NCBI RefSeq assembly: GCF_024298845.1
Contig: NZ_CP101156.1
Coordinates: 1,736,001 to 1,800,000, forward strand
Source of the DNA: Natronosalvus amylolyticus
GTDB taxonomy: Archaea > Halobacteriota > Halobacteria > Halobacteriales > Natrialbaceae
Direction of reading: 5' to 3'
Length of the DNA: 64,000 nucleotides
Shown here piece by piece: positions 9,319 through 11,891 of this stretch (within the stretch, counting starts at the first letter, position 1; each line of letters begins with the position of its first letter). The position numbers were made by a program, and so were the translations under genes. A model generated the notes under the pieces. It had not been told where the DNA came from. It did no database searches and was given only the letters and a program-made list of their open reading frames with translations.

Positions 9319-9945
9319 TCAGGCCGACGCTTCGAGTTCTTCGAGACTCTCGAGGGCAGCGATCACGTCACGACGGTAGTTTTCGACTGGCGAGTCATAG
9401 CGCTCGAGGGCCATCTGAGCGTACTCGTTGGACGGCACCGTCGACCCGCTCTCAGGCGCTTCTTGCTCGGCTTCGAACTCCGCGAACGCTTCGATGCGCT
9501 CGAGGGTGCGCTCGGCAGTTTCGACGACCCAGCGGTCGCGGGTGGCTTCGTCGACGACGGCGATGGATTCCGGTCGGACGGAGACGTTGATCGTGCCGTC
9601 ATCTGTCTCGTAGGTTCGTGGCTTGCCGACGATGGCGACGTACGCCGGCGGTTCCGTGTCACGGAGGACGGCCGCCGCTTCGGGCTGGTACTGCCCGGCG
9701 TAGACGAAGAACGTCCCCGTCGGGTCGACGACGCGGCCGCGCCAGTACTCGCTGTCCTCGCCGACGTCTTCGGTTTCGGTCAGCGTCCCGACGAAGAACA
9801 CACGATTAGCCCGGTCGCCCGTGGGCATGAGCGCATAGTTTGGCGCGCGTTCGTCGTCGGACTCTTTGAAGGCGTACGTGGAATCGTTGAATTCGGATGC
9901 GAAGACGCGTTTAGCGACTTCACGGGTGAGTTGGGTCTGAGACAT
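9319..9945 (-). CDS. rpap: RPA-associated protein
   Basis: 208 aa protein of the COG3390 type that is co-encoded with and binds archaeal RPA. It starts MSQTQLTREVAKRVFASEFN; the OB-fold region with RANRVFFVGTLTE and WRGRVVDPTGTFFVYAGQYQ spans about 40-125. The C-terminal third is helical and acidic. Its ATG directly follows the TAA of rpa with no gap, so the two are translationally linked. In Haloferax, RPA3 and its associated protein form such a two-gene operon and loss affects DNA repair; a two-gene layout with an RPA of about 310 aa fits the RPA3 set best. Confidence 0.88.
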   Translation of the reverse strand: MSQTQLTREVAKRVFASEFNDSTYAFKESDDERAPNYALMPTGDRANRVFFVGTLTETEDVGEDSEYWRGRVVDPTGTFFVYAGQYQPEAAAVLRDTEPPAYVAIVGKPRTYETDDGTINVSVRPESIAVVDEATRDRWVVETAERTLERIEAFAEFEAEQEAPESGSTVPSNEYAQMALERYDSPVENYRRDVIAALESLEELEASA

Positions 9946-10875
9946 TTACATCGACCTCGCTTTGATCAGCAGCGATTCAGCATCGACCGATCCGTCGAGT
10001 TCCTCGACGTCGTCAGCCAGTACGTAGCGGCCGAACGTCGGTCCCTCGATACGGTAGTAGGTGCCGACGATTCGATCGCGGATTTCGTCGGCGACGACCG
10101 TCGTGTCGAGTGCGTCCATCGCCATCTCCTTGGCCTCCTCGAGGCTGATCCCGGTCAGGGATTCGGTCGACTCGGCGTCGAAAATAACCTCGTGAGCGTC
10201 GATGCCGTCGTCGACGACACCTTTGATTCGGAGGTCGAACTCGCCTTCGACCTCACCGTGGTCGGGACAGCGACCGTTCTGGAGAACGTAGGTACAGCCC
10301 TCCTCGGGACAGCGTTTGATCAGGCCGCTCCCGCTCTGCATGTCCACGAGTGCGCCCTCGATCTCGCTGGTGTCGTCGCCGACTTCGATCTCCTCGTCGA
10401 GTTCCTCGACGACCGTCGTCGAGTTGAGTTTGACCGAGTACCGGCCCTGGTACTCGTCAGTGACGACGTTGCGGAGGTCGTAGACGCCGCCTTCCTCGAG
10501 ACTCGGGAGGTCGGATTTGGCCCATTTGGTAAACTTGATCGTGCCCGTGGGGTCACCCAGAAGGCCGACCTGGGCGACGGAGTCGCTGCGGGGCTCCCAG
10601 AGTTCGATGACCTTGGCGCGGAGGTCGATCCACTCTTCTGGTTCGTCGACGTCCTCGATCTGGGCGCGTTCGCTCGAGCCACTCGAGATATCTTCGCGCT
10701 CGAGGCCGGCCTCGTCGAGGTAGTGCGTCGTGACGGAACGGCGCGCCTCGTCCATCGGCACTTTGTACTCGTCGACGAGGGTGCTGAGTCGCTCCTCGAC
10801 GTCTTCGACGGTGACGTCGATGTGGTCTGAAAACTGCTCGTGTATGTCTGCTGCGTGTTGGGGTACGTCGCTCAT
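9946..10875 (-). CDS. rpa: Replication factor A, single-strand DNA-binding protein
   Basis: 309 aa from ATG 10875 (MSDVPQHAADIHEQFSDHID), preceded by a strong Shine-Dalgarno GAGGAGGC (plus 10884-10891) 8 nt away. Binds and protects single-stranded DNA in replication and repair. An N-terminal helical segment (1-60) is followed by OB folds (IDLRAKVIELWEP..., then FDLRIKGVVDDG...) and a zinc-finger motif, CPEEGCTYVLQNGRCPDHG, near the middle. The length and the partner gene suggest the RPA3 class of Haloferax. TATA-like TTTAAATACT is at 10932-10941; the roughly 35-nt leader contains a micro-ORF. Confidence 0.9.
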   Translation of the reverse strand: MSDVPQHAADIHEQFSDHIDVTVEDVEERLSTLVDEYKVPMDEARRSVTTHYLDEAGLEREDISSGSSERAQIEDVDEPEEWIDLRAKVIELWEPRSDSVAQVGLLGDPTGTIKFTKWAKSDLPSLEEGGVYDLRNVVTDEYQGRYSVKLNSTTVVEELDEEIEVGDDTSEIEGALVDMQSGSGLIKRCPEEGCTYVLQNGRCPDHGEVEGEFDLRIKGVVDDGIDAHEVIFDAESTESLTGISLEEAKEMAMDALDTTVVADEIRDRIVGTYYRIEGPTFGRYVLADDVEELDGSVDAESLLIKARSM

Positions 10876-10879
10876 CGGA

Positions 10880-10912
10880 TCACGCCTCCTCTTGTGTATC
10901 CATGGGAGGCAT
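10880..10912 (-). CDS. 10-codon leader micro-ORF of the rpa operon
   Basis: Reads MPPMDTQEEA then TGA. The ATG at 10912 lies about 27 bp from the centre of the TATA element (10932-10941), i.e. at the predicted transcription start, so it would be a leaderless start. Its last sense codons, GAG GAG GCG, are the Shine-Dalgarno of the rpa ATG, which follows the TGA by 4 nt. This arrangement suggests termination-reinitiation or attenuation control of RPA. The peptide itself need not matter. Alternatively transcription begins a little downstream and the micro-ORF is not translated. Confidence 0.45.
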   Translation of the reverse strand: MPPMDTQEEA

Positions 10913-11043
10913 ACCGGTGTTCGCGCCCAATAGTATTTAAACTGCCGCCACCGGAGCGAAAGTGGACATGTGGAGAGGTGCGAGTCGCTCAAGGGGTGTT
11001 ATAGCACGCGTTGGGACAGCCAGTTCGTCGAGATCATCTCCGA

Positions 11044-11579: not shown

Positions 11580-11891
11580 ATGGCAGATCGGCGTCGACTC
11601 GAGCGCTTTATCCGCTCGAAAGTCAGGGAAGCAGGCACGCAGTACGAGTCAGTTCGTCGGTCGGCAGACGGCCAACTCGAGGAAGCCCGTGAGGCCTATC
11701 GAATGGCTCGGAACGCCAAAACCATCCCCACGGACGAGGCCGACCGGGCGAAGATCGTCTGTCGACGCTTTGCCGAAAAACGCGCCGCGAAACTCGACGA
11801 GGAGTATCGGCCAGCGTGTTACGAGGCCGACCATCCCGACTGTGAGGGCTGTGTCGAAGACATCTACGACGGGCGGATCGAAACCTGGTGA
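11580..11891 (+). CDS. Small haloarchaeal protein, DUF7091-like
   Basis: 103 aa from ATG 11580 (MADRRRLERFIRSK), the start expected for the family as I remember it. A charged helical N-terminal half (RSKVREAGTQYESVRR) leads to AKIVCRRFAEKRAAKLDEEYRPAC and a cysteine-bearing C-terminus, DHPDCEGCVEDIYDGRIETW, with C-X2-C. Such paired cysteines may hold a metal. Its stop overlaps the GTG start of the nucleotidyltransferase (GTGA), so the two are translationally coupled. Function is unknown. Confidence 0.72.
   Translation: MADRRRLERFIRSKVREAGTQYESVRRSADGQLEEAREAYRMARNAKTIPTDEADRAKIVCRRFAEKRAAKLDEEYRPACYEADHPDCEGCVEDIYDGRIETW

Follow-up and report, generated by a model that had tools for sequence, protein, structure and literature searches.

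Does the ten-codon open reading frame that precedes a gene for a single-strand DNA-binding protein in Natronosalvus amylolyticus act in its own right, or does it lie over some other conserved element of the leader? The window, by which we mean the whole 64,000-nt stretch of DNA that we analysed, carries on its minus strand (9946..10875, start ATG at 10875) a gene that we identified as haloarchaeal rpa3, encoding a zinc-finger RPA of 309 amino acids (NF005553/PRK07217, E 6.5e-148, above the cut-off). Directly 3' of it is an ORF of 208 amino acids (9319..9945, minus strand) with the position and size of rpap3/rfa8. This ORF had no match among the Pfam, NCBIfam and PHROG models, and its name is taken from operon position alone. 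In Halobacterium the rfa3 operon has the highest expression among the RPA genes, and its extra expression increases radiation resistance (PMC5924565). On the plus strand, 11583-11891 encodes a DUF7091 family protein (PF23367, E 6.7e-37), the function of which is not known.

The rpa3 leader

A preliminary description of this DNA proposed that transcription starts at the ATG of a leaderless micro-ORF, the last codons of which supply the Shine-Dalgarno (SD) sequence of rpa3, so that a ribosome leaving the micro-ORF would finish at the rpa3 start. All the elements of that proposal are present on the minus strand: a TATA box, the micro-ORF (10880..10912) with its ATG at 10912-10910, ten codons (MPPMDTQEEA) ending at 10883 and a TGA at 10882-10880, then TCCG and the rpa3 ATG at 10875. 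The SD region lies within GAGGAGGCG (10891-10883, minus strand). Its GGAGG (10885..10889) was fairly called the SD sequence of rpa3, being complementary to the 3' end GGATCACCTCC of the 16S rRNA of the same genome. Absent from that description was the observation that the stretch from the ATG to GGAGG is an inverted repeat, GCCTCC CATGGATACACAAGA GGAGGC, which runs from the G of the micro-ORF ATG to the C of GAGGAGGC.

RNA folding turns this repeat into a 27-nt hairpin, GCCTCCCATGGATACACAAGAGGAGGC (10884..10910, minus strand), in which a single bulged base interrupts the stem of 7-8 pairs and an A-rich loop caps it. The SD sequence forms the 3' arm. The 5' arm GCCTCC occupies 10910-10905 and the 3' arm GGAGGC 10889-10884 on the minus strand, with an extra pair, C10904-G10891, above the bulged A10890. 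The minimum free energy of the leader RNA is -15 kcal/mol for 53 nt; by folding energy alone it is modestly better than shuffled sequences (z about -2). The predicted probability that GGAGG is unpaired is near 0. Across leaders, the median stem-pair probability is 0.995 and the median unpaired probability of GGAG is 0.001; low pairing values in some leaders come at least partly from an upstream GGAG in GGAGGAGG that was scored as the arm. The outermost U, that of the ATG, pairs with A or G without convincing covariation, so pairing does not account for the preference for T at this position.

Conservation and covariation of the hairpin

We compared 230 rpa3 leaders: 110 belong to the Natrialbaceae, 40 to different families of the same order and 80 to named genomes, with some overlap of species between the sets. 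The named genera include Haloferax, Halogeometricum, Halobellus, Halorubrum, Halobaculum, Halorussus, Halonotius, Natronomonas and Haladaptatus, with Haloferax represented by eleven genomes other than that of H. volcanii. The hairpin is kept in all 230 leaders, with six standard core pairs in 228 and five in the other two. Nearly all of them have a loop of 14-16 nt, which varies in length while the arms persist, and 6-13 nt separate the stem from the rpa3 ATG. Outside the Natrialbaceae the SD sequence is mostly just GGAG and lies farther from the ATG, which makes its use less sure there. The small-genome relatives G135 (L330) and G160 (L331) have lost the rpa3 hairpin or have it in degraded form (GTCACC..GGGGAC). 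Four loci from AT-rich genomes of about 1 Mb (L339-L342, family f2) have it as ATCTCC/GGAGAT or a near form, still with a CACTTTC box upstream, and the ATCTCC/GGAGAT of this distant group is a further compensated pair.

The two arms covary, occurring as GCCTCC/GGAGGC, GTCTCC/GGAGAC and GCCTCT/AGAGGC. In an alignment of 66 sequences, 88.6% of cells are paired, a value that falls to 37-54% when the partner is slid by 1-3 columns. Two-sided changes that preserve pairing account for 47 cells of this alignment, compared with 24.2 +/- 7.7 after shuffling, and none of 500 shuffles was as high. Among the 230 leaders, core position 2 is CG in 163, UA in 61 and UG in 6, and core position 6 is CG in 223, UA in 5 and UG in 2; four stem pairs are invariant and neither support nor refute pairing. 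The intermediates at the two variable core positions are U.G, in 8 loci from several separate lineages, and never C.A, and rpa3 paralogues provide more U.G cases. Intermediates confined to U.G in the direction of the sense strand fit an RNA transcribed from the rpa3 strand, and a DNA palindrome gives no cause for such an asymmetry.

A covariance model made from the alignment (R1) matched 86 of the 99 genomes of the order, mostly once, at rpa3 or its diverged paralogues. In the window the match spans 10916-10871 (39.3 bits, E 1.7e-11) and is the sole one in the genome, where searches with the exact pattern and with the model found no second copy of the hairpin. Rfam release 15, searched at the gathering score with the region and four loci, had no match at the leader. 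One genome (G187) has several rpa3 paralogues, each with a hairpin, and its extra strong matches all precede rpa3 relatives. Apparent tandem hairpins in the same genome, 89-90 nt apart (L292, L293 and L309), were rejected as an assembly artefact with N between duplicated contig ends.

What these comparisons show is a hairpin that is conserved at the level of RNA, belongs specifically to rpa3 and contains the SD sequence. As in SD-sequestering operators, the structure pairs the SD sequence and nearly all strong matches lie at one gene and its paralogues. From these features of the sequence, we infer that it may be a translational control element of rpa3.

Promoter and transcript start

The TATA box TTTAAATA (10934..10941, minus strand) lies 31 nt before the hairpin and 29 nt upstream of the A of the ATG in 108 of the 110 Natrialbaceae. 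The AA of an element like the WW -10 element known for haloarchaea (PMC4983044) is found at 10920..10921 on the minus strand, near-invariant at index -11/-10 counted from the 5' arm. Genomes that have no ATG (the ACG lineages) also keep a 'TA' initiator step at -3/-2. Because this step is kept in those lineages and the distance from TATA is fixed, the A of the micro-ORF ATG is probably the transcription start, with an error of about 2 nt allowed by our calibration. That calibration, on a crude set of 384 ORFs of the same genome, gave a peak at 28-32 nt from T-start to leaderless ATG, which is too broad for placement to 2 nt. The start at 10912 given in the preliminary description is plausible from the TATA spacing, then, with its exact placement uncertain by about 2 nt. 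Were the transcript to begin 1-2 nt farther downstream, the mRNA would lack the ATG.

Farther upstream, a CACTTTCGC box (10956..10964, minus strand) resembles the UV-responsive motif TTTCACTTTCA, an 11-bp UV-B motif published for Halobacterium radA1, top6B and other genes (PMC2556686). The CACTTYC core occurs upstream of TATA in 215 of 229 leaders, at a single fixed offset in 189, and the exact 11-mer in 28. The rpa3 promoter shares the CACTTTC core and its location upstream of TATA with the published motif; unlike the hairpin, the motif is a separate promoter element, and rpa3/rfa3 is outside the motif gene list of that paper (PMC2556686). On the strength of this box, rpa3 may belong to the damage-responsive UV-motif set at the transcriptional level. 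The published induction of rpa3/rfa3 is at the transcript level.

The micro-ORF across lineages

If the leaderless ten-codon micro-ORF were the functional unit, its ribosome would end at the rpa3 start and so couple the translation of the two. Leaderless transcripts make up 72% of the protein-coding transcripts of H. volcanii (PMC4983044), and the micro-ORF is intact and identical in all eight genomes of the genus. It is not conserved order-wide. An ATG occupies the leader site in 98 of 110 Natrialbaceae and in 35 of the 80 named loci of the wider order, so that the start codon is not a conserved feature. ACG, CCG, GCG or similar non-start codons take its place in 42 of 108 distinct leaders from outside the Natrialbaceae, and GTG also occurs. 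One-base indels in the loop change the frame of the micro-ORF, the TGA is gone in many genomes, and the hairpin persists where the ORF is lost.

The layout of ten codons ending 4 nt before rpa3 holds within the Natrialbaceae, in 61 of 110 loci, and is largely confined to that family. Five further loci have a stop at -5, and many others lack the TGA or are frame-shifted. The preliminary description had itself named an SD sequence kept without the micro-ORF as evidence against its proposal, and this is largely the pattern across haloarchaea. Judged from these leaders, conservation does not attach to the micro-ORF itself, which appears to be mostly a by-product of the hairpin, kept in only some lineages.

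The reading frames suggest some use of the AUG. A 5'-AUG that ribosomes never used would be expected to stand in any frame with respect to rpa3, and leaders with non-start codons do show this randomness: the 40 distinct leaders that lack a start codon comprise 13 fusions to rpa3, 13 that run through, 13 that overlap and 1 that ends upstream. In the first sample, the 43 distinct 5'-AUG leaders from outside the Natrialbaceae include none that enters rpa3 out of frame for more than 12 nt. The usual outcomes are a stop just over the rpa3 start, at +4 or +8, and an in-frame fusion. Counted by clusters of similar proteins, which correct roughly for relatedness, run-through was found in 0 of 26 AUG clusters versus 9 of 28 ACG-like clusters (p=0.0013). 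A wider pattern search added three run-through genomes, giving 3 of 29 versus 9 of 28 (p=0.044). Leaders with GTG or TTG resemble the non-starts (8/21). Within the Natrialbaceae, out-of-frame entry into rpa3 occurs in 15 of the 75 distinct AUG leaders, and these and the three others are the exceptions to a stop at or near the rpa3 start in most AUG leaders. The rarity of out-of-frame entry is suggestive of an AUG that is used and of damage to rpa3 that is avoided; it is not proof of conserved coupling.

Several leaders, in Halonotius and others (L205, L208, L215, L223 and L224) and in the Natrialbaceae (L031, L039 and L065), have the hairpin AUG in frame with rpa3. A leaderless start there would add about a dozen N-terminal residues to RPA3 and would place the hairpin inside the coding region.

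Taken together, the replaced start codons, the out-of-frame Natrialbaceae leaders and the loop indels make it doubtful that the micro-ORF is the functional unit, a reading that keeps an appreciable chance through its identity within the genus and the frames of AUG leaders elsewhere. The earlier interpretation is partly supported: leaderless reading of the AUG is plausible, but it would come on top of an RNA hairpin that is itself conserved.

A proposed mechanism and its alternatives

We think it likely that the leader is a 5'-terminal, SD-sequestering translational control element, and that coupling through the leaderless micro-ORF is a lineage-specific layer. The rpa3 mRNA would begin with the hairpin, transcription starting at its base or within about 2 nt of it. 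The 5' arm, G[CT]CTC[CT], would pair with the SD-bearing 3' arm, [GA]GAG[GA]C, and ribosome loading would be held back until the hairpin opens. A factor bound to the hairpin, recognising its GAAAC-type loop and its bulge, would most likely open or clamp it, such recognition being suggested by the conservation of both. On 5'-AUG transcripts such as that predicted in the window, a leaderless ribosome could enter, melt the 5' arm and end near the rpa3 start, freeing the SD sequence. This layer would be missing from the ACG lineages.

The most economical candidate for the factor may be the RPA3/RPAP3 complex itself, acting by negative feedback, which we offer as a guess with a substantial minority chance of being right. 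It is suggested by the autoregulation of other single-strand-binding proteins (T4 gp32) and by the increased radiation resistance that extra expression of the operon confers on Halobacterium. The fuller scheme, in which RPA3/RPAP3 would repress their own mRNA through the hairpin, single-stranded DNA from damage would titrate the protein off and the micro-ORF ribosome would serve as the opener in AUG lineages, we consider rather unlikely.

It is unlikely to a greater degree that the 5'-terminal hairpin gives protection from 5' decay and nothing else, with no translational regulation. Its position as the first element of the predicted transcript in every lineage and the top expression of the rfa3 operon among the Halobacterium RPA genes agree with such a role, but a stabiliser would need neither GGAG in its arm nor a tightly limited spacing from the rpa3 ATG nor a conserved loop, and the hairpin is found at one gene only. 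An SD-sequestering stem of 7-8 pairs before a stress-related gene might also be a ligand-free physical sensor of temperature or salt, melting under stress; this is very unlikely, as stem composition is nearly constant among haloarchaea and a pure melting switch has no need of the conserved loop and bulge. Least probable is that a dimeric regulator binds the inverted repeat as a DNA operator immediately past the start site, a reading that the near-invariant palindromic half-sites and their constant distance from TATA would suit and that we dropped because the wobble intermediates are asymmetric between the strands and the spacer, unlike that of a fixed dimer site, varies by 1-2 nt, the lack of a second copy in the genome also counting against it.

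Comparison with known systems

Structured leaders have been described as an untypical means of controlling translation in haloarchaea, whose mRNAs are mostly leaderless (PMC4983044). A hairpin that covers the SD sequence of one DNA-repair gene at the extreme 5' end, nearly order-wide, is a clear exception to this norm. Its presence argues for control, at the level of translation, of a single-strand-binding protein whose gene also has a UV-type promoter box. Lineages with and without the 5'-AUG have the same hairpin, and so allow leaderless and SD initiation to be compared in a natural experiment.

One report on Haloferax states that 5'-UTRs lower translation and that a stem-loop is needed for its regulation (PMC2636863). 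The hlr and HVO_0721 cases resemble rpa3 as haloarchaeal 5' stem-loops that affect translation. They differ from it in that a 3'-UTR is also required, and the passages compared describe the HVO_0721 stem-loop neither as conserved nor as SD-bearing (PMC2636863). In H. volcanii, uORFs within long 5'-UTRs likewise place a small ORF before the main gene on one mRNA, but those reported encode 15-31 amino acids within leaders of 150-250 nt, and rpa3 (HVO_0292) is not among them (PMC4983044). The micro-ORF of the window, by comparison, encodes 10 amino acids, overlaps the hairpin and is not conserved.

Translational operators that sequester the SD sequence include the coat-protein hairpins of phages, the site of T4 gene 32 autorepression and the archaeal ribosomal protein L1 sites. 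The rpa3 leader is like these in having a conserved hairpin with bulge and loop over the ribosome site of one gene, and unlike them in that its hairpin comes first on the mRNA, in a mostly leaderless archaeon, and its binding protein is a candidate only. In T4, gp32 binds single strands and represses the mRNA from which it is made; at rpa3, too, the product that would be regulated is a single-strand-binding protein. If true, autorepression by RPA3/RPAP3 would give archaea an equivalent of the autoregulation of T4 gene 32.
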